Shown here piece by piece: positions 36,813 to 59,427 of a stretch of 64,000 nt of DNA. The notes beneath the pieces were generated by a model. That model had not been told where the DNA came from. It saw only the letters and a program-made list of their open reading frames with translations, and made no database searches. Numbering within the stretch: the first letter of the stretch is position 1; the number at the start of each line of letters is the position of its first letter. The DNA is taken from assembly GCF_900607235.1 (NCBI RefSeq), contig NZ_LR027852.1:372001-436000 (forward strand). The letters are read 5' to 3'. The stretch is from Olivibacter jilunii (GTDB lineage Bacteria > Bacteroidota > Bacteroidia > Sphingobacteriales > Sphingobacteriaceae). The translations under genes and the position numbers were made by a program.

Positions 36813-36837
36813 TCGATAAAGTGCAATTTTTTATCGA
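36813..36837 (+). promoter_or_regulatory. Conserved 25-bp inverted-repeat operator, copy 1
   Basis: tcgataaa-N9-tttatcga forms a perfect 8-bp inverted repeat. The whole 25 bp is 21/25 identical to 59364-59388 before the fucosidase gene, and the similarity runs a few bases further. Both sites precede a TAnnTTTG element by 31-32 bp, the position expected for an activator. The AraC regulator at 58380 is the likeliest binder. Confidence 0.7.
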
Positions 36838-36850
36838 AAATGAACACACA

Positions 36851-36877
36851 TTGCCTACTATCCAATGAGTACATTTG
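36851..36877 (+). promoter_or_regulatory. Plus-strand promoter before AKR relic and GH42
   Basis: TTG (36851-36853) and TACATTTG (36870-36877), 16 bp apart, fit the Bacteroidota -33/-7 pair. The predicted start near 36884 lies about 25 bases before the relic ATG at 36909, suggesting the promoter once served that gene and now serves GH42. Confidence 0.6.
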
Positions 36878-36908
36878 TTTTCACGTAAGTTAAACCATCT
36901 AATAAACC

Positions 36909-37071
36909 ATGGAAATACAGAGAAATCGGCAAAACAGGTATGAAAGCATCTAACCTAAGTTATGGTGCGTCTTCTTTAGGGAGGCATTCTTTAAAAGAAA
37001 AAAAGGAGATCAATTCAGTAATATTGCCCATCACGGGTTATAAAATTGAATGGTGCGGCCGCGTGGTTTAA
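36909..37071 (+). pseudogene. 5' relic of an aldo/keto reductase gene
   Basis: From 36913 one frame reads KYREIGKTGMKASNLSYGAS, then SLGRHSLKEKKEINSV, which is the N-terminus of an aldo/keto reductase of the L-fucose/D-arabinose/L-galactose dehydrogenase type (family pattern 'MKYR.LG.TGL.VS.LS.GASSLG'). An ATG at 36909 is followed by one extra G, so the start is frameshifted from the body at codon 2. After about 36 codons the resemblance stops, an unrelated tail follows, and a TAA is met at 37069. About 90% of the gene is missing. It is a decayed remnant directly in front of the GH42 gene and directly behind a good promoter. Confidence 0.7.
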
Positions 37072-37105
37072 TAATAAGGATTTCAAAACAAAAAACAAAC
37101 TTACT

Positions 37106-39196
37106 ATGGTAAAGAAGACTATAGCACTAGTCATATTAACAATATTTGTATCGACATTAAATGTAAAATCGCAGGTAGTCAATCGTTTTTTTCCTGAAAA
37201 GGATTTGATCACCACTGGAATATACTACTATCCCGAACACTGGAAGGAAAGCCAATGGGAACGAGATATCAAGAAGATTGCTGATATGGGGTATGAGTTT
37301 GTTCATCTGGCTGAATTTGCCTGGTTTAAGATGGAGCCAGAAGAAGGGAAATTTGATTTTGCCTGGCTTGACAAGGTGGTGGCTCTTTGCGTTAAACACA
37401 AACTTAAAGTGCTTATGTGCACACCTTCGGCAACTACACCTGCCTGGATGCGGGTAAATTATTCCGAGACCTTTATAATGGATGGGCATTATATCCGTGC
37501 CGAACACGGAACACGGGGGCTCGGTTCAATCGTTAATTCCAAATATCGCCTGTTCGTTGAAAAGATTGTAACCGAAATGGCCAGGCGCTATGGGCAAAAT
37601 AAAAATGTGATTGGATGGCAGCTAGATAATGAGCCCGATGCTAAACCCGATTATAGTCCATCCTCTCAAGATGCCTTCAGGCAATGGCTAAAAAACAAAT
37701 ACAAAACGGTTGAAGCGTTAAATGAGGCCTGGGGTACTGCTTTCTGGAGCCAATGGTATAACGATTTCAACCAGATTACGATCCATAACACCAATCTGGT
37801 AGGTTGGTGGGGAAATAATCCACATGCTTTGCTTGATTTTAAACGCTATTGTGCAGATGCGCAGGCAGAATTCCTTGACTTTCAGGCCGGCATTTTGCGG
37901 AGTCATATTTCAAAGGATCAATATATCACCACGAATTATACAGCTGTTTCTCCCGGGGCTGACCCGCAGCGAACCCAAAAACTCGATTTTGCGGCTTATA
38001 CGGCCTATCCTAATGGCGGTAGCGATAATATTGGCGAACTTGGATTCAGGTTGGGCGATAGCAGAGTAATCCTTTTTGCGTCAGCATATTTTAAACATTT
38101 GGGAGGCGTATCTGGCGTAATGGAAATTCAGCCAGGACCTGTAAACTGGGGCAGCTACAACCCACTTCTATTACCAGGAACAGTGCGCATGTGGTTGTAC
38201 CATACATTTGCTGCGGGCGGAAAATTGGCCTGTTCTTATCGGTTCAGGCAAATTATATATAGCTCAGAACAGTACCATGCGGGCATTATACAAACAGATG
38301 GAATAACACCTTCGCCCGGTGGTGAAGACTATACGCAGTTCATGAAAGAAATAAAGGAGCTGCGGAAGCAGTATAAACAGGGCGTTAAGATGCCGGAAAA
38401 ATTGGCGGCGCGTTCAACGGCCATTCTCTGGAACCTCGAAAATTACTGGACGATAGACAGGCAAAAGCAGACCGCCCAATGGGAAACATGGAATTACCCG
38501 GTTAAGTTCATGGAGACGGCCAAGTCTTTAGGAGCCCCGGTTGATGTGATACCGGAGACCAGCGATTTGTCGAAATATAAGGTGGTCATTATTCCTGCAT
38601 ACGAAATGGTGGATTCGGCTTTAGTAAAGAAATGGAATAATTATGTAACCAATGGCGGACAGTTGATTATTACCTGCCGTACAGCAACTAAAAATCGAAT
38701 GGGACACTTCTGGGAGGGTAAGTTGGCAGCGCCTATTTCGGGTCTTATAGGAGCGCAGGTTACGGCAACAGACATGCTTTCGGCTTATGGCAAAGGAGAC
38801 GTTCAAATGGGATCCACCCACTATGCTTGGAATAACTGGGCGGATCTGCTAAAGCCCTATCAAAATACGGAAGTGCTTGCAAGCTATGAAAACCAGTTTT
38901 ATAAGGGAGCAGCGGCTGTTGTAAAACAGAAAATTGGTAAAGGATCTGTTACTTACATAGGTGTAGCTACGGACGATTTTAAGCTCGAAAAGGATTTGTT
39001 GCGTAACATTTATACGCAGGCAGGAGCAACTACTGAAGATTATCCTCCCGGTGTGTATGTCTATTGGAGAGATGGTTTTTATTTGGCTGTAAATTATTCT
39101 TCTACCGATTATACCATGCCTATTCCGGAAACCTCTACCGTTTTTGTTGGCGAGAAAACATTGAAACCTGCAGAGGTATTGGTTTGGAATGAGTAA
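37106..39196 (+). CDS. GH42 beta-galactosidase (secreted), first copy
   Basis: A 696-aa exported glycoside hydrolase family 42 enzyme. I start at the ATG at 37106 (signal peptide MVKKTIALVILTIFVSTLNV); an upstream ATG at 37046 overlaps the relic. The TIM barrel starts GIYYYPEHWKESQWERDI; the acid/base is E176 in WQLDNEPD and the nucleophile E340 in VMEIQPGPVNW. A trimerisation-type domain (VVIIPAYEMVDSALVKKW…NGGQLIITCRTA) and a C-terminal beta domain complete the family layout. It removes beta-galactosyl residues from oligosaccharides, probably in the periplasm. It is flanked by two relics: an aldo/keto reductase start upstream and an HTCS fragment 6 bp downstream, suggesting local rearrangement. 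Confidence 0.92.
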   Translation: MVKKTIALVILTIFVSTLNVKSQVVNRFFPEKDLITTGIYYYPEHWKESQWERDIKKIADMGYEFVHLAEFAWFKMEPEEGKFDFAWLDKVVALCVKHKLKVLMCTPSATTPAWMRVNYSETFIMDGHYIRAEHGTRGLGSIVNSKYRLFVEKIVTEMARRYGQNKNVIGWQLDNEPDAKPDYSPSSQDAFRQWLKNKYKTVEALNEAWGTAFWSQWYNDFNQITIHNTNLVGWWGNNPHALLDFKRYCADAQAEFLDFQAGILRSHISKDQYITTNYTAVSPGADPQRTQKLDFAAYTAYPNGGSDNIGELGFRLGDSRVILFASAYFKHLGGVSGVMEIQPGPVNWGSYNPLLLPGTVRMWLYHTFAAGGKLACSYRFRQIIYSSEQYHAGIIQTDGITPSPGGEDYTQFMKEIKELRKQYKQGVKMPEKLAARSTAILWNLENYWTIDRQKQTAQWETWNYPVKFMETAKSLGAPVDVIPETSDLSKYKVVIIPAYEMVDSALVKKWNNYVTNGGQLIITCRTATKNRMGHFWEGKLAAPISGLIGAQVTATDMLSAYGKGDVQMGSTHYAWNNWADLLKPYQNTEVLASYENQFYKGAAAVVKQKIGKGSVTYIGVATDDFKLEKDLLRNIYTQAGATTEDYPPGVYVYWRDGFYLAVNYSSTDYTMPIPETSTVFVGEKTLKPAEVLVWNE

Positions 39197-39202
39197 AGGG
39201 CT

Positions 39203-39489
39203 TTTCTAGCTGAATCGGATTTTATGTTCATGTAAAATACAGCTTTCTGAGAGACCCCTATCCATAGATTGCCGGCCTGGTCTTCCAAGATAGCGGTTGT
39301 TTTTGTAGTAGAAAGACTAAACGTCGTGAACGCCGGATTTAGATCAATCAAGGTGTTTGTTTCCGGCTGATGATTTTTATTCCATAGCCTTCCGTTCCCG
39401 CATAGATGTGATTATCTGCTCTTACATAAAGGCCTAAGACGGTTAAATTGGTAGGTCAGGAGAGGGAATCAGTTCATGTCGAATGTATT
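39203..39489 (-). pseudogene. Degenerate fragment of an HTCS gene, similar to 35420-35712
   Basis: About 287 bp align with 35420-35712 in the same orientation, with scattered substitutions and small indels. The minus-strand frame still reads IDLNPAFTTFSLSTTK and ILEDQAGNLWIGVSQK as in the intact sensor (about residues 245-342), then loses register (frameshifts in the stretches next to 39365 and 39235). No start, membrane or catalytic part remains. It begins 6 bp after the GH42 stop. It is either a duplicated piece of the neighbouring HTCS or the remainder of a second paralogue. Confidence 0.85.
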
Positions 39490-39540
39490 AAACAACAGCT
39501 TATTGCCATATAGCCATCTTTCGAACACTATTTGTAATAG

Positions 39541-39607
39541 TTAACAAAATAGGCCTAAAATATTAACAAAAGCGTTCCCTGCTTATAGAGGCTTTCTGCT
39601 AGCTTTG
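39541..39607 (+). promoter_or_regulatory. GH43 promoter with 22-bp-spaced direct repeats
   Basis: ttaacaaaa occurs at 39541-39549 and 39563-39571, exactly 22 bp apart (two helical turns), followed 28 bp later by TAGCTTTG (39600-39607), a perfect TAnnTTTG. Direct repeats about 21-22 bp apart are the expected site of a dimeric AraC-domain activator such as an HTCS. Confidence 0.6.
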
Positions 39608-39682
39608 TGTCACTTGCTACTTTATAAATCACCCGTTACAACATGTAATTTATTTTCAACGTAAATAATAGACCAAATCACT

Positions 39683-41278
39683 ATGACCCGAAAATTCAGT
39701 TTCTATTTTGTCTGCACACTTCTTTTCGTTTTGCCCAAAGCCCTTATTGCCCAGTTCGGTTATAAAAACCCGATATTACGTGGCTTTAATCCAGATCCAA
39801 GCATTTGCCGGGTTAATGATGATTTCTATTTGGTTACGTCATCATTCGAATATTTTCCCGGATTACCGATCTATCACAGCAAGGATTTAATAAACTGGCA
39901 GCAGATAGGACACTGTCTAACACGCGAATCTCAGCTTCCCTTACATAAGGCATTTTCTTCCGGTGGGCTTTTCGCTCCATCTTTAAGGTACCATAATGGC
40001 AAATTTTATGTAATCTGCACCAATGTATCAGGTGGTGGCAATTTTTATTGCACAGCTGATAATCCTGCCGGTCCTTGGAGCGACCCGATATGGGTGGATA
40101 TAAAGAGTATTGATCCGGATATTTTTTGGGATGATGATGGCAAAACATACTTTGTGACGCAGGGTAATGAGGGAATACGGATTACGGAAATCGATATTCA
40201 GACCGGGAAAACGCTTTCACCCGAACACTTAGTTTGGGGTGGTACAGGGGGACGTTTCCCTGAGGCCCCCCACGTCTATAAAAAAGATGGTTATTATTAC
40301 CTGTTACTTGGCGAGGGTGGGACAGAGTACGCTCACAGCGCAACCATAGGGCGCAGTAAATATCTCTTTGGTCCTTACGAAAACTGCCCGTTAAATCCTA
40401 TCTTATCGCATAGCAATCGACTGGGACAAGGTAACCAAATACAAGGAGTAGGGCATGCTGATCTTATTCAGGCAGCCGACAGTTCATGGTGGGCAGTTTT
40501 TTTGGGCTTTAGGGTTACGCAACCTTATTCATATTATCATATATTGGGTAGAGAAACATTTCTTGCTCCGGTAGACTGGCCTAAAAACGGATGGCCACAG
40601 GTTAATGGAAACGGCACCATAAATATTGATATGCAAGTGCCAACTTTGCCGCTCCAACCGTTTGAAGAACCGGTAAGTCGAACCGAATTTGACGAACCTA
40701 AATTAGGCTACGAATGGCAATACCTTAGAAACCCTGTTTCAGCAAATTATTCACTCACCGAACGAAAAGGATTTTTACGGATAAATGCTTCGCCTTTTAA
40801 GCTTAATGAGCTGGAGTCGGTTAGTTTTATTGGCCGACGACAAACTGAACACGATTTTACGGCAGAAACTAGTTTGGAAATAGTGTCCACCAAAGAAGAA
40901 GAGGAGGCCGGTTTAACCCTTATACAAAACAATACGCATCATTACGATCTTCTGCTTAAACGTAAAGGAAAAAGATTTGCTGTACAGCTTCGCGTTGTAG
41001 TTGGCTCGCTTTCCTATCTCGCCGCAGAAGAGTTGATCGATGAACCGACGGTTCGTCTTCAAGTAGTAGGAAAACCTTTGAATTATACCTTTAGCTACTT
41101 CAATACAAAGGCCGGTAAGTTTGTGGAATTAAAAAAATTGGATACGAGGTATTTAAGTACGGAAGTGGCAGGTGGCTTTACGGGTGTTATGATCGGACTT
41201 TACGCGTCCGCTAATGGACAGAAAACTTCATCAAAGGCTTATTTTGATTATTTTGATTACCGTGTTTCAAAACCGTGA
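39683..41278 (+). CDS. GH43 glycosidase (beta-xylosidase / alpha-L-arabinofuranosidase type)
   Basis: A 531-aa secreted GH43 enzyme (signal peptide about 1-23, ending LIAQ). Catalytic residues: general base D38 in GFNPDPSICRV, the pKa-tuning Asp in KSIDPDIFWDDDG (D144/D146), and general acid E194 in GRFPEAPHVY. The five-bladed propeller runs to about residue 320 and is followed by a C-terminal beta-sandwich (about 335-531) of the kind found in exo-acting xylosidases and arabinofuranosidases. Xylosidase or arabinofuranosidase activity cannot be separated from the sequence. It removes terminal pentosyl residues from the imported oligosaccharide, in keeping with the hemicellulose setting. Confidence 0.9.
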   Translation: MTRKFSFYFVCTLLFVLPKALIAQFGYKNPILRGFNPDPSICRVNDDFYLVTSSFEYFPGLPIYHSKDLINWQQIGHCLTRESQLPLHKAFSSGGLFAPSLRYHNGKFYVICTNVSGGGNFYCTADNPAGPWSDPIWVDIKSIDPDIFWDDDGKTYFVTQGNEGIRITEIDIQTGKTLSPEHLVWGGTGGRFPEAPHVYKKDGYYYLLLGEGGTEYAHSATIGRSKYLFGPYENCPLNPILSHSNRLGQGNQIQGVGHADLIQAADSSWWAVFLGFRVTQPYSYYHILGRETFLAPVDWPKNGWPQVNGNGTINIDMQVPTLPLQPFEEPVSRTEFDEPKLGYEWQYLRNPVSANYSLTERKGFLRINASPFKLNELESVSFIGRRQTEHDFTAETSLEIVSTKEEEEAGLTLIQNNTHHYDLLLKRKGKRFAVQLRVVVGSLSYLAAEELIDEPTVRLQVVGKPLNYTFSYFNTKAGKFVELKKLDTRYLSTEVAGGFTGVMIGLYASANGQKTSSKAYFDYFDYRVSKP

Positions 41279-41488
41279 AATGATCAAAAAATCAGTTATT
41301 AGATAATCCTTTGCTCGCAATTTATGATTAAATTAACCATTCCATAAACACGGTTATGAACCGTCCATGTTTAAAATTCATTTTTATCACACAGGGAAAT
41401 GTAAATTTATTCACGGATTTTAAATATTCAATTGTGTTCATAAGCCCGTCGGGGTTTTAACATGATAAGCTCCATCTGACCGATGGAT

Positions 41489-41509
41489 AAAAAAAACCGC
41501 TTTGCGGTT
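41489..41509 (-). terminator. Minus-strand intrinsic terminator without a matching gene
   Basis: Read on the minus strand, aaccgc-aaa-gcggtt is followed by a run of T residues (A-run at 41489-41496 on the plus strand). No minus-strand gene comes from the right: both neighbours are plus-strand. It may end an antisense RNA or be a remnant of a lost gene. Confidence 0.5.
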
Positions 41510-41554
41510 CATGAGTACCTTAAATGTAAAACACAAACGAGTAATTATTTACAG

Positions 41555-43645
41555 ATGAAACAAAAATTAGTAAACTACCGTACTGTAGTATTTAATCTCA
41601 GCAAATGCGGTCTACCGGCAATACTGATCTGTCTGCTCATTTTTCAGGCGAAAGCACAATATCGTTTTGATAATGTACTTTATGGTGCCGCTTATTATCA
41701 CGAATATATGCCGTTTGCCCGTTTGGATGAAGACATACGCTTGATGAAGGAAGCCGATTTAACAGTCGTGCGGGTAGGTGAATCGACTTGGTCGTTGTTT
41801 GAACCGCAGGAAGGTATTTTTGAGTTCGCCTGGATGGATACCATCCTCAATAAAATGCATGCTGCCGGTATCAAGGTTATTCTAGGCACACCCACTTATT
41901 CCATTCCGGCGTGGATGGCCCATAAATACCCCGAGGTGTTAGCAGCACATACCGGGGGAAGAAAGGCCTATTACGGTATCCGCCAAAACATGGATATTAC
42001 CAATCCCATATATCGCAAATTATCTGAAAGAGTGATCCGTAAAATGATGGAACATTTTGCCAAACATCCGGCTGTTATCGGCTTTCAGGTAGACAATGAA
42101 GTAGAAGCAAGAGGAATTAACAACCCCGGGTATTTTCAGGGTTTTGTTGATTATATAAAAAAGAAATTCAACGGAGACCTTAAATTGCTGAACAAGGAAT
42201 GGGGATTGAATTACTGGGGAATGAACATCAATACCTGGGACGAATTTTACCCACGTGATGGGGCGACCAACCCGTCGTATAAAAACGAATGGGAACGATA
42301 CAATCGGTATCGCGTTGCGGAGTTTCTGAACTGGCAGGTTGATATCGTAAACGAGTATAAAAGAAAAGATCAATTTGTTACCCATTGTTTTATGCCGTCT
42401 TTCCAAAACATAGATCAACCGGAGAGCTTCAGGCAAATGCAATATCCAGCAATCAATGTTTACCACGACGTACAAGATGGACAAAATGGGCAATTCATTG
42501 CCTATTCAGGCGATTACATGCGTACGGTTGCGAAAGGGAATTATCTAATAACTGAAACCAATGCACAGGCTACGGGATGGGATGCCAAAAACCAAAAACC
42601 TCCATATGACGGACAACTAAGGCAAAACGTATTTGCCCATCTGGCCTCAGGTGCCAACATGGTTGAATACTGGCATTGGCATACCCTGCATTATGGACAG
42701 GAAACTTATTGGCGCGGAATATTAGGGCAAGACCTACAGCCTAATCGAATTTATAAGGAGTTCGCTGCTACGGCCAAAGAACTCAAGCATATTGGTAAAG
42801 ACCTGGTCAATCTGAAAAAGGAAAACAAGGTAGCCATTCTGTTCAGTCATGATTCTTATCACGCGTTGAGTTTTATGCCCTACACCGATAAGGACCATTA
42901 TCCGTCAGGATTCGTTCATCGTGCATTATACAATCAGAATATTGAATCGGATATTGTTCCCTGTGATGAGCAGGCGGATTTTAGCAAATACAAAATGCTG
43001 GTTATTCCTCCATTGTATGTAGCGAGCGATCGTTTATTGGAGAAAATCGATGAATTTGTAAAAAATGGCGGCTATGTGGTTATGCTCTATAAAAGCGGAT
43101 ACACCAACACGCACTCCGCAGTTCGGGCCACTTTAGCACCTGGACCATTGCGAAAAGCCGCAGGCTTCTATTACCAAGAATATGCTAATATTCCTGCATT
43201 ACCTTTAAAAGATCACGCTTTCGGATTAAGTGGAAAGGAGATAAGCGAATGGTATGAGTTTTTAATACCCGAAACAGCAAAACCCTTGGCCTATGCCGAT
43301 CATCCTTTCTATGGCAAATGGCCTGTTATTACCGAAAACAATTACGGAAAAGGAAAATTGGTATATATCGGCACCTATCCTTCACAGGAACTGCTGGAAA
43401 AAATTGTCTTACAAACGGCAAAGGATGCAGGCGTCACCACGGTCGCAAATAATTACCGCTTTCCCATTATTGTCCGTTCCGGGAAAAATCAATCAGGCAA
43501 AACGATTCATTATCTATTCAATTACAGCAATAAAAGTCAAATGGTCAATAATCCTTATCCCGGTGGAAGCGAGCTCCTTTCTGGCCATCAAACCGGTAAG
43601 GAAATTGCACTCGATGCATGGGATGTGAAAGTTATCAGTGAGTAA
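41555..43645 (+). CDS. GH42 beta-galactosidase (secreted), second copy
   Basis: A 696-aa GH42 enzyme distinct from the first copy. I start at the ATG at 41555; the ATG at 41483 runs through the hairpin and gives a lysine/asparagine-rich extension. A signal peptide of about 35 residues ends IFQAKAQ. The barrel starts NVLYGAAYYHEYMPFARLDEDI, the acid/base is E182 in FQVDNEVEA (NEV where the usual sequence is NEP), and the nucleophile is E334 in YLITETNAQ. The rest covers the trimerisation domain and C-terminal beta domain (HYLFNYSNKSQMV). The two copies differ widely, so they may act on different galactosyl (or arabinopyranosyl) linkages. Confidence 0.92.
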   Translation: MKQKLVNYRTVVFNLSKCGLPAILICLLIFQAKAQYRFDNVLYGAAYYHEYMPFARLDEDIRLMKEADLTVVRVGESTWSLFEPQEGIFEFAWMDTILNKMHAAGIKVILGTPTYSIPAWMAHKYPEVLAAHTGGRKAYYGIRQNMDITNPIYRKLSERVIRKMMEHFAKHPAVIGFQVDNEVEARGINNPGYFQGFVDYIKKKFNGDLKLLNKEWGLNYWGMNINTWDEFYPRDGATNPSYKNEWERYNRYRVAEFLNWQVDIVNEYKRKDQFVTHCFMPSFQNIDQPESFRQMQYPAINVYHDVQDGQNGQFIAYSGDYMRTVAKGNYLITETNAQATGWDAKNQKPPYDGQLRQNVFAHLASGANMVEYWHWHTLHYGQETYWRGILGQDLQPNRIYKEFAATAKELKHIGKDLVNLKKENKVAILFSHDSYHALSFMPYTDKDHYPSGFVHRALYNQNIESDIVPCDEQADFSKYKMLVIPPLYVASDRLLEKIDEFVKNGGYVVMLYKSGYTNTHSAVRATLAPGPLRKAAGFYYQEYANIPALPLKDHAFGLSGKEISEWYEFLIPETAKPLAYADHPFYGKWPVITENNYGKGKLVYIGTYPSQELLEKIVLQTAKDAGVTTVANNYRFPIIVRSGKNQSGKTIHYLFNYSNKSQMVNNPYPGGSELLSGHQTGKEIALDAWDVKVISE

Positions 43646-43693
43646 ACGGAACATTATACGAAAAAAATAGTTCGTTACAAGCTTCCGGCGATA

Positions 43694-43733
43694 AACTATT
43701 GGATAGGGTTAACCCGTTACCCTATCCATAGTT
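43694..43733. terminator. Hairpin between convergent GH42 and esterase genes
   Basis: aactat-t-ggatagggt (43694-43709) pairs with accctatcc-atagtt (43719-43733), a 15-bp stem with one bulge. It lies 48 bp after the GH42 stop and about 110 bp after the esterase stop. The T-tracts are weak (tagttcttct). Confidence 0.6.
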
Positions 43734-43845
43734 CTTCTCAGATATTCCTGCGCACCTCCTGAGTTTGTCTCAACGGCTCATATTAAGAGGATCATTACCA
43801 TTTAAGGGAGCGCTTCATTTTTACTGATATGATTGTTTAAAGTCA

Positions 43846-45783
43846 TTATTTTTCTGTGATCCATTTCCAATCATCTGTTTTGAAGGGCACCGCAGGAAGC
43901 CCCTCTTTATTAAATAGGTTTACATCCGGGTTATCGCTCCAAGAATAACGAACCGCTGTAGGATTTGACACTTTATCGGAGTAAACAACTATTGTATTCC
44001 CATCCACATAAGCTTTAGCCCATTCAAATTGCTTATCCGCCCCGGCAATGGTAAATCCTTCAACATATCCGTATTTATTATGCAATAATAAGCCGTTCGC
44101 TGCATTTTTATAATAGATAATCGCCTTATTCCCTTCAATTTGCATTGATTTGAACACTGGGCCGGTGTATACGATTTCTTTCTTTCCATAATCTTTATTC
44201 AACGTTATTAAGGCCAGCCGCATTCCTACATCTTGTTTATTTCGCGGATGGATGTCGTCCGCATCGCCTATATCCGTAATTACTGCTTGTCCGGTTTTTG
44301 GTAGGGCTAAGGTTCTGCTTTGTGCCTCTCGGAGTTCCGCCCATGTACTTTCTTGTGGTTTTTCGTCTTTTGCCATAAAGTTTGCCAGTTGTACCCAATA
44401 AAAAGGGAATTCGTAACCCCATTTAGCACGCCAGTCGTTAATCATAGTTGGAAATAAGGTGCAATAGTCATAGGCCCGTATGGCATTGTTTTCACCTTGG
44501 TACCATATTACGCCTTTAATTGGAAATGGTATAATTGGATTTATCATCGCATTAAAGAGTAATGATGGCTGAACATTCGGGGAGATGTAGGTAAAACCAA
44601 ACTGTTTGTTTGTTACTGACTCCTTGTAATACCATTCTCCATTTAAGGGATACGCATTACCATCAATTTCTAAATACATATTATCGGCGTTGCCGTAAAA
44701 TCCTCCACCTCCATAGTTATCAGTTATCCTTACCGTGACTGTATTTATGCCTTCTTTTAATGTGTTTTCAGGAATAACGTAATCTCTGTTAATTGCATGT
44801 CCATTGGTAGCGCCGATTTGAACACCATTTAACCAGGTAATGTCAGCATCGTCGATTGTACCAAGATGAATGCTTGCCTGTTTCTTGATCACTTCTTTAG
44901 AGAGTTTGATATTATATTTGAACCAGATCACCCCATCAACTTCTCCTAGAACCTCTTCCCATAACTGCGGAACCCGCATCATTTTCCAGGAAGATAAATC
45001 GACAGGCAGGGTTTCCCATTTTTCTATTGTTCCTGTTTCTTTGTTCAATGCTTGATAATAGGCGGTTTTCTTTTTTTCATTCTCCTTTGTGAATTCTTCC
45101 AGGTTACGGGTTCTAAAATCTCCATAGCGTTCTTTAAAATGTTCAGGTAATACGTTGAAAGCACTCGAACTGGTCCAGGTTTCTATATCCGTTCCTCCCC
45201 ATGAGGAATTGATAATGCCGACAGGAATATCAAGTTCAACATATAATTTACGGGCAAAAAAATAAGCGACGGCTGAAAAATTGCCAACTGTGGCAGGAGA
45301 ACAGCTCTGCCACATACCATTCAAGTCTGATTTCGGTTCCGGACTTAGGGCCTTTTCAACATTGAAAGCACGTATTTGTGGATAATCGGCTTTACGTATT
45401 TCCGTTGGTGCATCTTTAACATCTTTTACCGTCCATTCCATGTTAGATTGCCCTGATGCAAGCCATACCTCTCCAATAAGTATATTCTTGAGGGTGATAT
45501 TACTATCTCGCCCTTTGATATGCATTAAGTACGGGCCACCATAAGACATGGGGTCAAGTTGAAGAGACCATTCGCCTCTTTTATTGGCTTTCACCTTTTT
45601 AACCTGATTGATAAAATGAACTTCTATCTCCTCGTTATTGTCGGTCCATCCCCAAATTTTTATAGGAACATCTCTTTGCAACACCATATTTTCTGAAAAT
45701 ATGGCCGGTAGTCTGATTTCTGCTTTAAGAACGGATAATAAAAAAAATAAGTAACAAAAAATGAGGCTGTGTTTCTTAGACAT
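43846..45783 (-). CDS. Sialate O-acetylesterase-family (SGNH) carbohydrate esterase
   Basis: A 645-aa exported esterase of the SASA/DUF303 family (signal peptide about 1-21, ending LKAEIRLP). Beta-sandwich at the start (FSENMVLQRDVPIKIWGW), catalytic Ser in WLASGQSNMEW, the SGNH Gly/Asn in INSSWGGTDIETW, an inserted galactose-binding-like module (about 265-400, SIHLGTIDDADITWLNG), and the DxxH motif in IGDADDIHPRNKQDVG. The family removes O-acetyl groups; plant polysaccharides are common targets despite the name. Last gene of the GH5-SusCD operon. With xyloglucan as substrate it would deacetylate galactosyl residues before GH42 acts; this is inference. Confidence 0.9.
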   Translation of the reverse strand: MSKKHSLIFCYLFFLLSVLKAEIRLPAIFSENMVLQRDVPIKIWGWTDNNEEIEVHFINQVKKVKANKRGEWSLQLDPMSYGGPYLMHIKGRDSNITLKNILIGEVWLASGQSNMEWTVKDVKDAPTEIRKADYPQIRAFNVEKALSPEPKSDLNGMWQSCSPATVGNFSAVAYFFARKLYVELDIPVGIINSSWGGTDIETWTSSSAFNVLPEHFKERYGDFRTRNLEEFTKENEKKKTAYYQALNKETGTIEKWETLPVDLSSWKMMRVPQLWEEVLGEVDGVIWFKYNIKLSKEVIKKQASIHLGTIDDADITWLNGVQIGATNGHAINRDYVIPENTLKEGINTVTVRITDNYGGGGFYGNADNMYLEIDGNAYPLNGEWYYKESVTNKQFGFTYISPNVQPSLLFNAMINPIIPFPIKGVIWYQGENNAIRAYDYCTLFPTMINDWRAKWGYEFPFYWVQLANFMAKDEKPQESTWAELREAQSRTLALPKTGQAVITDIGDADDIHPRNKQDVGMRLALITLNKDYGKKEIVYTGPVFKSMQIEGNKAIIYYKNAANGLLLHNKYGYVEGFTIAGADKQFEWAKAYVDGNTIVVYSDKVSNPTAVRYSWSDNPDVNLFNKEGLPAVPFKTDDWKWITEK

Positions 45784-47492: not shown

Positions 47493-47503
47493 CTTTTAGC
47501 ATT

Positions 47504-52371: not shown

Positions 52372-52605
52372 GGTTAATTAAGTTTATAACAGTTTTGGTT
52401 TTATTGTTACCCAAGTTGGGTCGGTAAAGTTAAATACAGGATCAAATACAGAAGGGTATAGAATGTTATAGATATGATGCGGAAATGTTAATTTTAAATT
52501 TTATCAGCTCTTGCATACACTGGTTGGATGCCAAATTTTCAAATCGGGTTCAGTACAATAAGCGTGTACTATTAATCAATTTTCTAAAGTCCTTTAAGCG
52601 CATAA

Positions 52606-52628
52606 CGCCCAAGGTTTTTCCTTGGGCG
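52606..52628. repeat. Hairpin in the GH5-susC gap
   Basis: cgcccaagg-ttttt-ccttgggcg, perfect 9-bp arms, lies about 28 bp after the GH5 stop (minus strand). There is no T-run after it on the minus strand, so it is more likely a 3'-stabilising or attenuating stem than a full terminator. Confidence 0.55.
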
Positions 52629-52655
52629 CTGATAAATTTTAACATTTAATGGATG

Positions 52656-53885
52656 TTAAAATGGATATTTACCCATATTGGCACCCCACATCAAACCATA
52701 GAAGATATACGGATCAATTACCGCCATATTGTTGCGACGATCTAAAACTCCCCCTACATCCCACAAGAACGGTGTAAATCCGGCATTTTTCGCCTCTTGA
52801 GCCACGCACGCATGAAAACGGTTTCTGGATTCATCGTGCGCTTTCTGGATAGTCGGATCGCTAAAGGTCCTTCTAACAGAACAAAATTCGCCAACAATTC
52901 CCGGGATGCCCTGATCGGTAAATCTGCGCTTCATTTTACTGAATTGTTCGCGTACATAATCTTCTCCGCCCCAGTTTGCCCAACGGCCCTCATACTCACC
53001 CACCGCGTAATTTTTAAATTCCTCGCCCCAGAAATAGAACATTTTACCCCAATCTTCATCCTTCGGCATCAGACAGAAATTATAAGGAGCATAATAATGT
53101 ACTTCCATGATCATTCTACCTGCTCCTGTTGGATCATGTGGCAAAGTCATCAGTTCGTCCGATAAATCAATGTTTGTGGCAGGGCCTTGGACAATTAAAT
53201 TTCTATAGGTATTTCGGCCTCCGCTATTGCGTACCGCGTCAACAAATGTTTGATAATAGGAATGAAGGACGGCCATCTCTTGACTGTTTTTTACATCGGG
53301 CTCGTTACTGCTTGCAAATAGTAAATGCTCATCATAATCACGGAAATAAACGGCAATCTGCTCCCATAAGGCTTTTTGTTTTTTATTGACCGATTCTTGC
53401 ATTTCGGGCGTACAATTTTTTTCTAACCATCCCTCATCCCAATGGATGTTTAATATGGCATACATATCGTTGTTTACACAATAATCGACTACCTCCTTTA
53501 CACGCGCTAACCAACTTTCTTTTATTTTATAAGTTGTTTGATCCTCTAAGTATTGATTCCAGGAACAGGGAAGGCGGACAGCGTTAATTCCCGCACTTTT
53601 AACGGCCCTAATCATGGCTTCCGTAGTGAGTGGATTTCCCCAATAGGTTTCTCCGCCAATCGCTTCCAATGTATTACCGAGATTCCATCCCACATGCATC
53701 TTGGAAACTAGTTGAAAGGCATTACTACTCATTCCGCTCATATCTGGCGGTATTTGCTGCTGACGCGTTGACGCAAGTTTAGATCCTATCGCCGCTTTAT
53801 TGCTTGGAGAAGCGGTTTCATGAATTTTGGCGCAAGAAAGCATTAAGAATACCGGAATAATTCCGCATAGAATTTTTCTCTTCAT
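52656..53885 (-). CDS. GH5 endo-glucanase / xyloglucanase-type lipoprotein
   Basis: A 409-aa cell-surface GH5 enzyme. Lipobox MLSC (C18), Ser/Gln-rich linker (about 20-55), then the catalytic barrel starting KMHVGWNLGNTLEA, the signature of GH5 subfamily 4-like endo-beta-1,4-glucanases. Acid/base E195 in FASSNEPDV; nucleophile E333 in GIVGEFCSV; substrate-site His pair in NIHWDEGW and EVHYYAPY. GH5_4 includes endo-xyloglucanases, lichenases and broad cellulases. Lipid anchoring and leading position in the SusCD operon fit the surface endo-enzyme that cuts the backbone for import. It is divergent from the HTCS at 54153, with shared control sites in the gap. Confidence 0.9.
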   Translation of the reverse strand: MKRKILCGIIPVFLMLSCAKIHETASPSNKAAIGSKLASTRQQQIPPDMSGMSSNAFQLVSKMHVGWNLGNTLEAIGGETYWGNPLTTEAMIRAVKSAGINAVRLPCSWNQYLEDQTTYKIKESWLARVKEVVDYCVNNDMYAILNIHWDEGWLEKNCTPEMQESVNKKQKALWEQIAVYFRDYDEHLLFASSNEPDVKNSQEMAVLHSYYQTFVDAVRNSGGRNTYRNLIVQGPATNIDLSDELMTLPHDPTGAGRMIMEVHYYAPYNFCLMPKDEDWGKMFYFWGEEFKNYAVGEYEGRWANWGGEDYVREQFSKMKRRFTDQGIPGIVGEFCSVRRTFSDPTIQKAHDESRNRFHACVAQEAKNAGFTPFLWDVGGVLDRRNNMAVIDPYIFYGLMWGANMGKYPF

Positions 53886-53979
53886 AAGTTAAGAAATTAG
53901 ATTAAAGAATGTTTATAATTGGGAGCTTCACGATACTGTGTATAGCAATCGCTTTAAAACCATCAAGGCTCCTTTGAAA

Positions 53980-53987
53980 CAAAAATA
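53980..53987 (-). promoter_or_regulatory. -7 element of GH5-SusCD operon
   Basis: On the minus strand TATTTTTG fits TAnnTTTG. The predicted start is about 90 bases before the GH5 ATG. Confidence 0.5.
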
Positions 53988-54027
53988 GTGGGAGATAACC
54001 ACGAGCAGATGATGAAATGTATGCAAT

Positions 54028-54058
54028 AGGGGATCAGTATTTCTCTGCAAGGGGATCA
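54028..54058. promoter_or_regulatory. 22-bp-spaced direct repeats aggggatca
   Basis: aggggatca is found at 54028-54036 and 54050-54058, exactly 22 bp apart, in the divergent GH5 / HTCS gap. Seen from the GH5 operon the pair ends 40 bp upstream of the -7 element. This spacing suits a dimeric AraC-type HTH like that of the adjacent HTCS. Confidence 0.6.
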
Positions 54059-54152
54059 TATGTTTCTAATTACAGGATAAAATGATTAGCTGCCGATTTA
54101 CTTGATACTATTTGTTTATTTTGCGTACGCTATTTACCGAATCAGCTAACCG

Positions 54153-57100
54153 ATGAGGAAACCGACATTTTTTTTAATAATATTTTTATTTGGATTTGTA
54201 CTCACCTATGCTCAACCTTATGAGTTCGCTCACTTTGATAACAGAAATGGGCTGTCTGGTAACGAAGTGCTTAGTATATTTAAAGATAGTAGAGGCTTCG
54301 TTTGGTTCGGCACAAGTACCGGTTTAAATCGCTTTGACGGTATCGCATTTAAGACGTTTAATAGTGATGTAAACGGCACTAATAGCTATCTATATGAGAA
54401 TCTGAGAAAGATTGTCGAAGACGCGAATGGCAATTTATGGCTACAGGGCAACACTTTCCTATTCTATAATTGGCGTACGGAATCATTTACGAGCAATATC
54501 GATTCTGTTTTAAACAAGATGGGATTACCTCCATATCCTATTTCCGTACAAGTGGATAAAGACAAAAATTTTTATGTAGCCTACTTCGGAAAAGGAATTT
54601 ACAAATATGACGTAGGAGCAAAGAAGATATCGCTTTTTAAACAATCACCCTATGCAAAAGATCTTGTTCCATCTCCCATTACTGATATGAAAATTCAAGA
54701 TTATTTTATGTGGGTATTGCACAGGGATGGTGTCTTAGAGCGGGTCAACACAAAGACGGCGGCAGTTGAGATCCGAAATACCTATATAAAAGAAAAGTTA
54801 AAAAGTTCTATCATACCCAAAAATATTTTCATAGACGCAGATAAAGACATTTGGGTATACCCTGGAATTAATGATAAAGGAGCCCTATTCTTCAATTTGA
54901 AACAAAATAATTGGACATTATTAGGCGTGGACACCAACCCTGCACTCTCTCATAGCTTCACAAGATGTATTATACAAGACTCGAAGGGTATGATTTGGAT
55001 AGGCACTGATCATGGGGGGATAAATATTTATGATAAAAAACGTAAGACAATCCGTATCGTTGAAAATAATGTTTATAATAAATATTCGCTGAGTCAAAAT
55101 TCGATTATCAGTCTTTATTGTGATAATGACGGTATCGTATGGGCAGGCACCTACAAAAATGGTGTGTCTTACTATCATCCCAGCATGTTTAAATTTTGGA
55201 AATCGCCTTTATATTACCTATTTATTCGAAATGCGGAAGTTTTTGATTGTAGCAGCCTTTATAAAGATCAGCAAGACAATTTATGGGTTGGTACCAATGG
55301 TAAAGGCTTGATAAAATATAACGAACAATCCGGAAGTATGCAACGTTTTCGTGCCAACTCGAACGATGAACAAAGTATATCGTCTGACATTATCACCTCG
55401 ATTTTCGAGGACAGTCAAAGAACAATTTGGATTGGTACATTTTTAGGCGGCTTAAACGCATATAAGAATCGAGGTTTTAAACAATACCGATTTGATAAAA
55501 ACAATCCCAATTCTTTATCCAACCAAAGTGTGTATGGTATAGCGGAAGACCATGATCATAATTTATGGATAGCTACACTTGGCGGGGGAATCAATCGTTT
55601 GAATCCTGAGCGAAAGGTGTTCACACATTATAATAGGGAGAATAGCCCACTACGTTCAGATTTCATCCTGTCAACTTTTACCGACGCTTCTAAAAAGATT
55701 TACTTCTGTTCAGACATAGGCATCTATCGGATTTACAAGAAAAATGAAATTGTTCCTTTTTTTGCCGATTCTAAGCTTCAAGACTCGGTTTCGAGAACGC
55801 CTGTACCTCAATTAATGACTGATTCCGAGGGGTTGATATGGACGGCAACTAAAAATGGAATTAACATTTATGATCCCAAGGTAAAGACGTTTCATCGCAT
55901 AACCACTAACAATGGTTTGTCAAGCAACGATGTGCGATCCTTGGTGGAAGATGGTGATGGAAATATTTGGGCCGGAACAAGTAATGGACTGAATCGTATC
56001 TATTTCAACCGTAAAATGCCGGAGCTTAAACCAGCTATTATTTCTTTTGACATCAATGATGGGTTGCCAAGCTCTAGTTTTAATCCCAGTGCTGTCTTTA
56101 AAGATAAGAAGGGCATAATTTACATGGGTACTACCCAGGGCTATATAGCATTTAACCCACAAGATATCCCGGTAAACAATTTTGTTCCTACACCTAGATT
56201 CACGGATCTTTTAATAGCCGGTCAAGTGATCAAGCCCCATGTGAATTATAACGGGCGCATCATTATTAATAAATCAATAGTCGATCTAGATGAGATCATT
56301 CTTAAACATGATGAAACCAATTTCACTGTTCAGTTCTCCGGCCTCAGCTTTATCCATCCTGAAAAAAATAAATATAAATACATGTTGGAGGGCTTAGAAA
56401 AGCAATGGAGAGAGATAACGAATGGTGTTGGCGTAGCGTCATACTCCAATCTCAATGCAGGTACCTATAAGCTTAAAGTATACGCAGGTAACGAAGACAA
56501 TATTTGGTCAGAAAAACCAATAATCCTAAAGATCATTGTTAGACCGCCCTTTTGGTTTTCCTGGTGGGCGTGGACTATTTATGTCGCTACCGCCGGCCTT
56601 TTAATTACATTATTCATAAAACATAAGCTGAACAAGCAAAAAGAAAAATTCGAGCACGCACAAAGGCTGTTGGAAGCAGAAAAATTACATGAGGTCGATC
56701 AACTGAAACTTAAATTTTTTACAAACATTAGCCATGAGTTTAAAACACCGCTTTCATTAATAATCAGCCCGTTGGAAAAGCTCCTAACGTCTCCTATAAG
56801 TCCAGATGAAAAGTCGACATTAAACATGATGTATAAGAATGCGCGAAGGCTTTTAGATATGGTAAATGAAATACTTGATTTTAGAAAGCTTGATCAAAAT
56901 CAATTGGCCTTGAATTTATCTAAAGGAAATATTATAGAATTTGCTAAAGATATTTGCGCGTCTTTTTCTCCACTGGCTGCCGAAAAATCTATTAAACTCA
57001 CCTTTACAACTTTTCAGAAAGATTTGTCGATGCAGTTTGATAGGGAAAAAATGTATATGATCATTGTAAACCTAATTTCCAATGCGTTTAAATATACACG

Positions 57101-58277
57101 TGAAGGACATATCGATGTCAGCATTTTTCTTTCCGAAAAAGTTAGTAATAAAGCGATAGAAAAGCAGCTCTGCTTTCAGGTGTCAGATACTGGGACGGGC
57201 ATCAAACCGGAATATCTCGGTAAAATTTTTGAGCGTTTTTTTCGTATCGAGAGTGCTGAGGTACATGGTATTCCGGGTACGGGAGTAGGATTGCATCTCG
57301 TTAGCGAATTCGTAAAGCTTCATGACGGTGAAATATATGTTGAAAGCGTTGTAGGAAAAGGGTCCGTATTTACGGTATTAATTCCTATGACAAATACCAC
57401 ATTGGACATCTTGAAAAACCAAGATGTCATCTATCCCGGAAGCGTAAAAAATGAAATATCCTTGGATGCTATGGCTGATTTGAATAAATTGCCACAAAAT
57501 AACGGCTTGCCATTACTTTTGATTATTGACGATAATCAGGATTTCTGTAGCTTCTTAACCGGTCTGTTTTGTAACGATTATCGTATTGTTACAGCTAACG
57601 ATGGGGAAGAAGGCTATGGTATAGTGCTTGATCAATGGCCTGAAATGATTCTATGTGACCTAATGATGCCGAAAATGGACGGATATGAGTTTTGCAAAAA
57701 AATAAAAGAGGATATGCGTACTTCACACATCCCCGTTATATTGCTTACCGCAAAATCATCCGACGAAAACAGATATTCCGGCATTGAAGCGGGGGCAGAC
57801 GACTATATTTCTAAACCATTCAACATTGAGATTCTTAAACTGAAGATCGTAAAGATTATTGAGAAGCAAAAACTATTGCAAAGCAGGTTCAAAGCAAAGG
57901 TTGATATATCCCCCGGCAAAATCGAAATTGTCTCAATGGATGAGAAATTCGTAAAGAAGGCTGTATCTATAGCGGAAGAGAATATAGGAAATCCCAACTT
58001 TTTAGTGGAGGATTTATGCAAAGAAATGGGAATGAGTAGGGTTAATTTCTATAAAAAGATAGTGGCATTGACCGATAAGACCCCATCCGAATTTATTCGA
58101 TTTATTCGCTTAAAACGAGCCGCAGATTTACTCGCAAAAAGCCAGCTATATGTAAGCGAAATTTCCCTTTTGGTAGGATTTAATGAAGCCAAATATTTTA
58201 GAAAATATTTTAAGGATGAATTTGGTGTTACACCCAATGAGTATAAAAAGAATGTCTCGAAGTTGCATGGCGATTGA
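54153..58277 (+). CDS. Hybrid two-component system sensor/regulator (HTCS), second copy
   Basis: A 1374-aa HTCS. Order: signal peptide (1-20), propeller repeats (about 22-690; blades such as DSRGFVWFGTSTGLNRFDG), Y_Y_Y domain (about 715-785), transmembrane helix (about 800-822), HisKA with His861 in NISHEFKTPLSL, HATPase (GTGVGLHLVSEFVKLHDG), receiver (LLIIDDNQDF; phospho-Asp1169 in ILCDLMMPKMDGYEF) and an AraC HTH ending YKKNVSKLHGD. It is divergent from the GH5-SusCD operon, and that operon is its probable target. It differs strongly from the HTCS at 32394, so each should sense a different oligosaccharide. Confidence 0.95.
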   Translation: MRKPTFFLIIFLFGFVLTYAQPYEFAHFDNRNGLSGNEVLSIFKDSRGFVWFGTSTGLNRFDGIAFKTFNSDVNGTNSYLYENLRKIVEDANGNLWLQGNTFLFYNWRTESFTSNIDSVLNKMGLPPYPISVQVDKDKNFYVAYFGKGIYKYDVGAKKISLFKQSPYAKDLVPSPITDMKIQDYFMWVLHRDGVLERVNTKTAAVEIRNTYIKEKLKSSIIPKNIFIDADKDIWVYPGINDKGALFFNLKQNNWTLLGVDTNPALSHSFTRCIIQDSKGMIWIGTDHGGINIYDKKRKTIRIVENNVYNKYSLSQNSIISLYCDNDGIVWAGTYKNGVSYYHPSMFKFWKSPLYYLFIRNAEVFDCSSLYKDQQDNLWVGTNGKGLIKYNEQSGSMQRFRANSNDEQSISSDIITSIFEDSQRTIWIGTFLGGLNAYKNRGFKQYRFDKNNPNSLSNQSVYGIAEDHDHNLWIATLGGGINRLNPERKVFTHYNRENSPLRSDFILSTFTDASKKIYFCSDIGIYRIYKKNEIVPFFADSKLQDSVSRTPVPQLMTDSEGLIWTATKNGINIYDPKVKTFHRITTNNGLSSNDVRSLVEDGDGNIWAGTSNGLNRIYFNRKMPELKPAIISFDINDGLPSSSFNPSAVFKDKKGIIYMGTTQGYIAFNPQDIPVNNFVPTPRFTDLLIAGQVIKPHVNYNGRIIINKSIVDLDEIILKHDETNFTVQFSGLSFIHPEKNKYKYMLEGLEKQWREITNGVGVASYSNLNAGTYKLKVYAGNEDNIWSEKPIILKIIVRPPFWFSWWAWTIYVATAGLLITLFIKHKLNKQKEKFEHAQRLLEAEKLHEVDQLKLKFFTNISHEFKTPLSLIISPLEKLLTSPISPDEKSTLNMMYKNARRLLDMVNEILDFRKLDQNQLALNLSKGNIIEFAKDICASFSPLAAEKSIKLTFTTFQKDLSMQFDREKMYMIIVNLISNAFKYTREGHIDVSIFLSEKVSNKAIEKQLCFQVSDTGTGIKPEYLGKIFERFFRIESAEVHGIPGTGVGLHLVSEFVKLHDGEIYVESVVGKGSVFTVLIPMTNTTLDILKNQDVIYPGSVKNEISLDAMADLNKLPQNNGLPLLLIIDDNQDFCSFLTGLFCNDYRIVTANDGEEGYGIVLDQWPEMILCDLMMPKMDGYEFCKKIKEDMRTSHIPVILLTAKSSDENRYSGIEAGADDYISKPFNIEILKLKIVKIIEKQKLLQSRFKAKVDISPGKIEIVSMDEKFVKKAVSIAEENIGNPNFLVEDLCKEMGMSRVNFYKKIVALTDKTPSEFIRFIRLKRAADLLAKSQLYVSEISLLVGFNEAKYFRKYFKDEFGVTPNEYKKNVSKLHGD

Positions 58278-58379
58278 CCATAACGGAAATACAAAATAGA
58301 GGTTTTGATACCGCTCCGTACCGTTAGATTACTAGATTATAGCCTACAATTATCTTTTCAATAGCACACCATTTAACGC

Positions 58380-59252
58380 TTATTTTAACCGTAAGGGGGA
58401 TCTATTATGTTGCATTTTTCCCGGGTTTTCACCCGCTATTTTTTTGAAGAGGCGGTTAAAATAGGATATGTTTTCAAAGCCCAGTTGATAAGCAAGTTCT
58501 TTAATGCTAATGTGCTTCACCAGCAGCATCAGTTGTGCTTGTTCTATTTTTTTTTGATTAATATATTTTCTAGGAGTACAATGCATTTGTTTTCTGAAAA
58601 GGCGAATAAAGTGATCTGTCGTTAAACAGGAGGCCTGTGCAAGCTCCTCGATTTTTATTGGTTTATCCATGTTACTATGAATGTAGTGAATAGCTTTCAA
58701 AATGCGTTCGTCCAGATCTAAGTTCCTATCGGCGGCCCCTGTTAAAAAGCGTGATAGGATTTGTTTTAAGATGCCTTCGGTTTCCATCTCTAAGGCAGGG
58801 GGTGTATGCGTTTGTTGGCTAATATTCTTTATCAACATTGGCGAATTATCATAATCTTTCGGATCATAAGCTTGTAGTTCAAGCTTGGGATTGATAGCTG
58901 CTAAACGTTTGATAAGGAAAATAATTAACTCATCAGCTTTGATTTCGACAGGAAAATCGAGGATGTCGAAAATACTCAGCTGTTTACCTAAAGTTTCATA
59001 GATGTGAATGTAATAAAGTGACAGCTTACCGGTGCAGCTATAACTATGTTTGGTATGAGGTGGTGTTAGGTACAAATGTCCTTCTTTTAGTGTATATGAA
59101 TGATCTTCACGTACGATTTTGGCTGACCCGCTTTCGATGAAATGAATACGGGTAAAAGGACTATGTATATTTTTCCAGTTCCAATCCGCATGATGGACGG
59201 CCCGCCCGACATTCAATAAGATAAATTCTCGTTTAATCTTCTTTTCATCCAT
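58380..59252 (-). CDS. AraC-family transcriptional regulator
   Basis: A 290-aa AraC regulator starting at the ATG at 59252 (MDEKKIKREFILLNVGRAVHH); the frame is open further upstream but that stretch is intergenic in character. N-terminal cupin sensor (about 10-110: FTRIHFIESGSAKIVREDHSYTL, GHLYLTPPHTKHSYSC), linker, and a C-terminal double HTH (about 190-290: IKIEELAQASCLTTDHFIRLFRKQMHCTPRKYI; ISIKELAYQLGFENISYFNRLFKK). It is divergent from the GH29 gene. A 25-bp conserved inverted repeat and a half-site (tcgataaagt, 59288-59297) lie between them, so it probably activates the fucosidase and, through the matching site at 36813, the GH42 promoter. Confidence 0.9.
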   Translation of the reverse strand: MDEKKIKREFILLNVGRAVHHADWNWKNIHSPFTRIHFIESGSAKIVREDHSYTLKEGHLYLTPPHTKHSYSCTGKLSLYYIHIYETLGKQLSIFDILDFPVEIKADELIIFLIKRLAAINPKLELQAYDPKDYDNSPMLIKNISQQTHTPPALEMETEGILKQILSRFLTGAADRNLDLDERILKAIHYIHSNMDKPIKIEELAQASCLTTDHFIRLFRKQMHCTPRKYINQKKIEQAQLMLLVKHISIKELAYQLGFENISYFNRLFKKIAGENPGKMQHNRSPLRLK

Positions 59253-59287
59253 ACGATCCTTATGTTTTCTAAATATAATAAGAAAAG

Positions 59288-59297
59288 TCGATAAAGT
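59288..59297 (+). promoter_or_regulatory. Half-site of the conserved operator
   Basis: tcgataaagt repeats the first ten bases of the sites at 59364 and 36813, with no right half. It lies 36 bp upstream of the AraC start, where it could mediate autoregulation. Confidence 0.45.
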
Positions 59298-59363
59298 ACA
59301 GCTTCCAATATGAATAAAGGATAAAATATGGGAACTAGGGCAAAGCTTAACGTAAAGCAAAAA

Positions 59364-59388
59364 TCGATAAAGTGAAATAATTTGTCGA
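59364..59388 (+). promoter_or_regulatory. Conserved 25-bp inverted-repeat operator, copy 2
   Basis: tcgataaa-N9-tttgtcga, an 8-bp inverted repeat with one mismatch, is 21/25 identical to 36813-36837. It ends 31 bp before a TAnnTTTG element, nearly the same geometry as copy 1 (32 bp). Confidence 0.7.
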
Positions 59389-59397
59389 TAATAGACA

Positions 59398-59427
59398 TTG
59401 TGGATAGCCTCGATATCCTTAACTTTG
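59398..59427 (+). promoter_or_regulatory. GH29 promoter
   Basis: TTG (59398-59400) and TAACTTTG (59420-59427), 19 bp apart, match the Bacteroidota -33/-7 pattern. The predicted leader to the ATG at 59519 is about 85 bases. Confidence 0.6.

Follow-up and report, generated by a model that had tools for sequence, protein, structure and literature searches.

The 64,000-nucleotide stretch of the Olivibacter jilunii genome analysed here (contig NZ_LR027852.1, positions 372,001 to 436,000; hereafter the window) contains two promoters, 22 kb apart, that share an operator-like element, together with a gene for an AraC-family regulator that is the predicted binder of both copies. Copy 1 of the element (36813-36844, plus strand) is composed of two direct half-sites with a 21-bp period, one at 36813-36823 (TCGATAAAGTG) and a weak one at 36834-36844 (TCGAAAATGAA). 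On the same strand, it is followed by a TAnnTTTG box (TACATTTG, 36870-36877) that starts 57 bp past the operator's first base, by what remains of an aldo/keto reductase gene, a relic of its 5′ part (36913-37032), and by a gene whose sequence corresponds to a glycoside hydrolase family 42 (GH42) beta-galactosidase (GH42a, 37106-39196). Copy 2 (59364-59395, plus strand) combines the half-sites TCGATAAAGTG (59364-59374) and TCGATAATAGA (59385-59395) with a TAnnTTTG box (TAACTTTG, 59420-59427) 56 bp from its first base, upstream of a family 29 glycoside hydrolase (GH29) gene of the exo-alpha-L-fucosidase/alpha-L-galactosidase type (59519-61168, plus strand). The AraC gene is located on the minus strand; its open reading frame is listed as 58380-59459, and its likeliest start, as deduced from orthologues, is at 59252. 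With this start, the gene extends over 58380-59252 and copy 2 falls within the AraC/GH29 intergenic region, as does a single half-site (TCGATAAAGT, 59288-59298, plus strand) located 36 bp upstream of the AraC start.

The first 25 bp of the two copies, TCGATAAAGTGCAATTTTTTATCGA at 36813-36837 and TCGATAAAGTGAAATAATTTGTCGA at 59364-59388, are identical at 21 of 25 positions, and the two copies, the two boxes and the half-site at 59288 all lie where a first-pass annotation of the window had placed them. This annotation described both copies as 8-bp inverted repeats; the arms are perfect in copy 1 (8/8) and match at 7/8 positions in copy 2. A scan of the 6.7-Mb genome for the 25-bp pattern, allowing three mismatches, led to exactly two matches, the copies at the two promoters (one match for the reversed control; 0.00 expected per shuffle of the window in 100 shuffles). 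The bare palindrome TCGATAAA-N9-TTTATCGA, allowing two mismatches, is present at 18 places in the genome versus 11 for its reversed control, one place without mismatch and one with a single mismatch (copies 1 and 2) and 16 with two mismatches. The pair is therefore distinguished by its shared spacer and promoter context. The observation of a common element at the two promoters is thus confirmed, and it is stronger than first stated.

The protein encoded by the AraC gene contains an N-terminal AraC-type ligand-binding (cupin) domain (PF02311, 2.3e-07; PF07883, 3.8e-06) and a C-terminal AraC-type domain with two helix-turn-helix motifs (PF12833, 3.5e-18; PF00165, 7.3e-15, in two stretches). Among 301 genomes of the same family, with up to eight candidates scored per genome, 89 encode a match to this protein at E ≤ 1e-30 and 26 a close orthologue at E ≤ 1e-78. 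The exact composite pattern of element and box is present in 25 of these 26 genomes versus 7 of the 275 others (Fisher p=4e-29), the reversed pattern giving 15 matches across the same 301 genomes; in the sole exception (G054), the element is present with a box one base off. In six genomes (G141, G207, G231, G255, G288 and G291), the element precedes GH29 at a distance of 13-53 kb from the AraC gene, and in G282 one site precedes a zinc dehydrogenase gene. Two genomes (G136 and G294) encode extra AraC copies, which were considered jointly. Half-sites are concentrated upstream of AraC genes, with 59 in about 32 kb versus 36 in 905 kb. Comparison with 27 reference proteins identified no gene of the regulon behind any of the seven matches in other genomes, which were for this reason taken as chance; a stray match in the carrier genome G270 was treated likewise. 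The loci of chance matches (L060, L061, L062, L065, L067, L068, L075 and L082, L065 being a stray match in the carrier G004) were excluded from the comparison of 44 non-redundant elements, the leader-motif count and the matrix scan described below. This distribution agrees with the proposal of a single AraC regulator made in the first-pass annotation, and the protein encoded at 58380 is the best candidate regulator of both sites.

A search of named genomes with a profile of 14 AraC orthologues gave 170 relatives, and the analysis continued with the best 80, which include proteins from Olivibacter domesticus (G001), Chitinophaga, Sphingobacterium, Parabacteroides, Dysgonomonas, Tannerella, Proteiniphilum and Bacteroides. 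The composite pattern is present in 37 of these best 80 phylum loci, the reversed control being found in none. In a matrix scan, 58 of the 80 loci score at least 20, including 21 of the 43 that lack the exact pattern, versus at most 1.4 for 80 mononucleotide-shuffled controls. In about 15 of the 58 high-scoring loci, the best operator starts 37-41 bp before the AraC gene, suggesting that the half-site at 59288 may mark an ancestral operator place. Single half-sites are found at the same place in other loci, and the one at 59288 is conserved in O. domesticus; taken alone and allowing one mismatch, the 10-mer half-site has 7 matches in the window for 5.2 expected, and is thus not rarer than expected by chance. 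The most likely reading of the site at 59288 is that of a regulator site that has been kept, perhaps with an autoregulatory role.

Two side observations concern individual AraC loci. In L141, L148, L157 and L162, the first half-site of the best element resembles TCGATATTGTA or TCGATATC and CATACAT replaces the second half, perhaps corresponding to a shifted specificity. The AraC orthologue of G004 (L041, 14006-16107) consists of two pieces with a transposase gene (rve, HTH_21) between them; a further transposase gene, with identical Pfam scores, comes after a shortened gene for the zinc dehydrogenase (L041, 18229-19056), and the MFS gene matches in two pieces.

We scanned 52 paired elements for the box, from 25 to 139 bp past their first base. 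In 45 of them, a TAnnTTTG starts at 56 bp (29 elements) or 57 bp (16 elements), with one further occurrence at 138 bp; the matched geometry of the two promoters, pointed out in the first-pass annotation, is therefore meaningful. The proximal half-site ends 24-25 bp before the box, no conserved -33 element is present between the second half-site and the box in the 44 non-redundant elements, and, with this fixed spacing, the second half-site roughly coincides with the expected position of the -33 element of the primary Bacteroidota sigma factor. AraC-type proteins that act by class II activation show this geometry, and the sequences present both features of a class II site, direct half-sites about 21 bp apart and a proximal half-site at a fixed distance from the promoter. 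The motif TAnnTTTG/TTTG is described as the consensus for the primary sigma factor of Bacteroidota (PMC7366714). A leader motif, TAARCC, noticed post hoc and without a control, is located 20-26 nt past the box in 15 of the 44 elements, e.g., at position 36900 of the window.

In 19 of 20 regions (11-20 kb) surrounding AraC orthologues, we identified a GH29 gene (60-86% identical) with the element upstream; the remaining region (L059, from G243) contains neither GH29 nor the element in its 20 kb. We also considered the best match starting within 520 bp downstream of 56 distinct elements from 100 AraC loci (the two copies of the window excluded), named by comparison with the same 27 reference proteins. 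GH29 accounts for 22 of these matches, aldo/keto reductases and RhaM-family mutarotases for 10 each, zinc dehydrogenases for 5, SusC for 3, hybrid two-component regulators for 2 and AraC for 1; behind the other 3 elements, no gene was recognised. In a Parabacteroides locus (L098), the element is followed by genes for an aldo/keto reductase, a zinc dehydrogenase, a PF04909 amidohydrolase, an MFS permease and a mutarotase, with a distant GH29. This amidohydrolase has no match at E ≤ 1e-15 in the five genomes of the genus, in a search made without a positive control, and no solved relative at E ≤ 1e-5. The MFS permease of L098 exceeds the FucP cut-off; FucP was rejected as a pathway marker, its model matching eight stretches of the O. 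jilunii genome and exceeding the cut-off in all five genomes of the genus.

These genes point to an L-fucose-like sugar, and the fucose link proposed in the first-pass annotation is uncertain. The aldo/keto reductase of G004 is closest to solved L-galactose dehydrogenases (7lh6, E=6e-130), so that an enzyme of this type is, by sequence, located under the element in relatives, O. jilunii retaining the relic only. The GH29 protein of the window obtains nearly equal scores with an alpha-L-fucosidase (7snk, 285.5 bits) and with exo-alpha-L-galactosidases (282.2 bits for 7ljj and 279.8 bits), and such an L-galactosidase is reported to share one GH29 cluster with xyloglucan-active fucosidases (PMC11189522). 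LguA, an enzyme oxidising L-galactose, is described as inactive on L-fucose (PMC12632266). Taken together, these data make L-galactose no less plausible than L-fucose as the inducer, and the sugar may be L-galactose instead of, or besides, L-fucose. No description of this regulon was found in the open-access literature searched.

Comparison of the two intergenic regions with those of relatives revealed a conserved GH29 promoter at copy 2 and a different history for copy 1. The flank of copy 1 aligns with the promoter of the intact aldo/keto reductase gene of G004, through the start and about 40 codons, after which similarity stops. The remaining codons, whose frame disagrees with that of the start codon, give a translation 67% identical to residues 2-43 of the G004 protein, as expected from the dehydrogenase-type relic proposed in the first-pass annotation, and no aldo/keto reductase of this type was detected in the O. 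jilunii genome at E ≤ 1e-20. Copy 1 thus appears to be a promoter left behind, orphaned by the deletion of its aldo/keto reductase gene. The gene now located downstream, GH42a, probably starts at 37106, about 230 nt past the box of copy 1. It has no match at E ≤ 1e-150 in the other four genomes of the genus, and its nearest relatives (83-86%) are encoded by g14 and g15 genomes without close AraC orthologue, some of them adjoining SusC/SusD, surface glycan-binding protein (SGBP), GH5 or hybrid two-component regulator (HTCS) genes related to the xyloglucan-type locus of the window, so GH42a was apparently acquired. Neither a half-site nor a paired core was detected in the 500 bp upstream of GH42a orthologues at nine loci, and among the elements with a downstream gene examined, GH42 is the next gene only for copy 1 of the window. 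Since GH42a appears to be acquired and its orthologues at these nine loci lack half-sites, its association with the element would result from the capture of a promoter in this lineage. Two loci of Chitinophaga (L094 and L114) have a GH42a orthologue that adjoins the AraC/GH29 pair or lies downstream of an element, so that an older link between GH42 and the regulon is possible.

The same data lend weight to the best-surviving alternative, in which copy 1 would be a decaying relic without present function and GH42a would use another promoter: the reductase gene is reduced to about 40 out-of-frame codons, the nearest relatives of the apparently acquired gene belong to genomes without close AraC orthologue, and its orthologues at the nine loci have neither a half-site nor a paired core upstream. 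We regard this as a serious possibility, somewhat less probable than present use of copy 1. Indeed, copy 1 retains its complete first half-site (11/11), the TCGA of the second and an intact box, and this box is the only exact TAnnTTTG on the plus strand in the 320 bp upstream of GH42a, which is why GH42a is probably transcribed from it. The coupling of a GH42 promoter to the GH29 promoter, proposed in the first-pass annotation, is to be qualified, copy 1 having apparently been a reductase promoter originally. Between GH42a and GH43, two fragments on the minus strand (39226-39452), 78-84% identical to parts of the regulator HTCS1, are apparently the relic of a second HTCS copy and suggest recombination in this stretch.

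The first-pass annotation interpreted the element as an inverted repeat. Such a 25-bp palindrome would be bound by a symmetric dimer, e.g., a repressor of the LacI or GntR type. In its favour, the 8-9-8 inverted repeat of copy 1 is perfect, the T-runs at positions 16-19 mirror part of the A-run, and ATCGA is located 20 bp after the half-site in 24 cases. The consensus of the relatives, however, is a tandem direct repeat with a 21-bp period, TCGATAAAGTG-N10-TCGATAA, and clearer forms are present upstream of close AraC orthologues, such as TCGATAAAGTG-N10-TCGATAACGTG. Among 114 distinct TCGATWWWGT half-sites from the 100 AraC loci, 43 are followed by TCGAT 21 bp further on, no other spacing from 8 to 59 occurring more than twice, and the reversed sequences contain 22 half-sites, none with TCGAT at 21 bp. 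In the 44 non-redundant elements, the second half fits the first better as a direct repeat in 32 and as an inverted repeat in 9, with 3 ties. Their first halves have the profile R-TCGATAWWGTGCAA and their second halves TTTTnR-TCGATAA, the base preceding TCGA being a purine in 44/44 first and 43/44 second half-sites, G more commonly than A, as expected for a direct repeat; the GTG at positions 9-11 has no mirrored CAC, and the two-fold symmetric conservation of a palindromic operator was not observed. The palindromic aspect is mainly due to the self-complementarity of TCGA, combined with an A-run after the first TCGA and a T-run before the second. The inverted-repeat operator was consequently rejected, and its recognition by a symmetric repressor appears highly improbable.

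Equally improbable is binding by the neighbouring hybrid two-component regulators HTCS1 or HTCS2. Both are encoded near a copy, and predicted Bacteroides HTCS sites are also direct repeats with long spacers (PMC3878776), but among 14 other genomes picked for an AraC orthologue and the element (E ≤ 1e-200, 41 of 87-231 candidates scored per genome), an HTCS1 relative with at least 50% identity is present only in G001 and G092 and no HTCS2 relative exceeds 35%, and among the 20 AraC regions only that of G001 (L040) contains a close HTCS1 (85%). The element therefore persists without close relatives of these proteins (15 of the 26 AraC-orthologue genomes tested, O. jilunii included). In two Chitinophaga loci (L102 and L108), the element is located directly upstream of a hybrid two-component regulator gene, and the AraC protein may control another regulator there. 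Beside SusC1/SusD1 and HTCS1, the window also encodes a set of sugar-acid type proteins (20194-27398), including an SBF transporter, an RraA-like protein, an enolase-superfamily protein, an aldehyde dehydrogenase and an FAH hydrolase.

We propose that the AraC-family protein encoded at 58380-59252 would be a sugar-responsive activator, a dimer of which would bind the two direct half-sites (R-TCGATAWWGT) 21 bp, i.e., two helical turns, apart. The promoter-proximal half-site would lie at the place of the -33 box, the regulator recruiting RNA polymerase with the primary Bacteroidota sigma factor (class II activation). The wider regulon would release, equilibrate and oxidise L-fucose-like sugars through GH29, mutarotase, aldo/keto reductase and zinc dehydrogenase, some operons adding the PF04909 amidohydrolase and the MFS permease. 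In O. jilunii, copy 2 would be the intact, conserved GH29 promoter and copy 1 the promoter of the deleted reductase gene, now reading toward GH42a, so that GH42 and GH29 are probably co-induced; the half-site at 59288 may serve AraC autoregulation. We hold this explanation, an AraC activator with a direct-repeat operator, a GH29 promoter at copy 2 and a captured promoter at copy 1, with good confidence.

Several points weigh against it. Eighteen of the 26 genomes contributed AraC-proximal sites to the definition of the composite pattern. The independent test of co-occurrence corresponds to the other eight (8/8 positive), namely the six with a distant GH29, G282 and G243, and four of the seven matches elsewhere belong to the 63 genomes with weaker AraC homologues. 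The matrix was trained on elements that include those of the scanned loci; 22 of the 80 phylum loci score below 20, 11 of them no better than the best shuffled control, and some low-scoring loci (L149, L155 and L172) have a GH29 nearby. The second half-site of copy 1 is weak, and the T-runs ahead of the second half-site leave a residual inverted similarity, visible in the nine elements and three ties mentioned above. GH42 as a member of the regulon is based on O. jilunii and on the GH42 neighbours of L094 and L114. Finally, the elements, their spacing, the co-occurrence and the relic are read directly from the sequences, and binding, activation, the inducer and the present use of copy 1 are deduced from them.

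Overall, the first-pass interpretation is partly supported: the AraC protein and the shared promoter logic are probably right, the symmetry was wrong, and the history and the sugar were incomplete. Judged from sequence, this is a new regulon of a known kind. More tentatively, and with doubts that outweigh our confidence, the data could be read jointly as an AraC-type regulator of L-galactose (and perhaps L-fucose) use across much of the Bacteroidota, a single operator-promoter module of rigid geometry accompanying GH29 and the sugar-oxidation genes when these relocate on the chromosome, and the rewiring of a horizontally acquired GH42 gene to this module by deletion of the intervening gene. 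If true, the release of terminal L-sugars would be coupled to that of the underlying beta-galactose, as in the side chains of xyloglucan. More generally, the analysis provides a precise and testable rule for the operator and promoter of a carbohydrate regulator whose range extends from Sphingobacterium and Chitinophaga to Parabacteroides. It also proposes a regulator for an L-galactose pathway and offers an apparent case of promoter capture, an orphaned regulon promoter being located ahead of an enzyme gene that was apparently acquired.

Paired direct half-sites at which AraC-type proteins exert class II activation are known from araI1-araI2 of Escherichia coli, and from RhaS and XylR. The system described here resembles them by the AraC-type domain with two helix-turn-helix motifs, the direct half-sites two helical turns apart and the location of the proximal half-site at the upstream promoter element; it differs by the TAnnTTTG box in place of -10/-35 elements, by the half-site TCGATAWWGT and by the absence of a looping site from the model. 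The regulons of HTCS and SusR-like regulators in Bacteroides also combine long-spacer direct repeats with the control of polysaccharide use, their sites being described as 12 bp with a 9-bp spacer or 16 bp with a 5-bp spacer, also with a 21-bp period (PMC3878776), whereas the regulator is here a one-piece cupin-AraC protein. The same source lists FucR (BT1272, fucose) as GntR and RhaR (BT3768, rhamnose) as AraC (PMC3878776). For L-galactose, BVU_0219 and BVU_0222 of Bacteroides vulgatus are L-galactose and L-galactonate dehydrogenases (Hobbs 2014, as cited in PMC12632266), and the lgu cluster of Luteolibacter includes the activator LguR, whose gene is annotated as Btr-like (PMC12632266). Unlike the regulon described here, these genes come with no operator in the relevant passages of that source (PMC12632266). 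By enzyme type rather than by sequence orthology to the BVU genes, the Parabacteroides locus L098 resembles both systems, combining an L-galactose dehydrogenase-type aldo/keto reductase with a further dehydrogenase.

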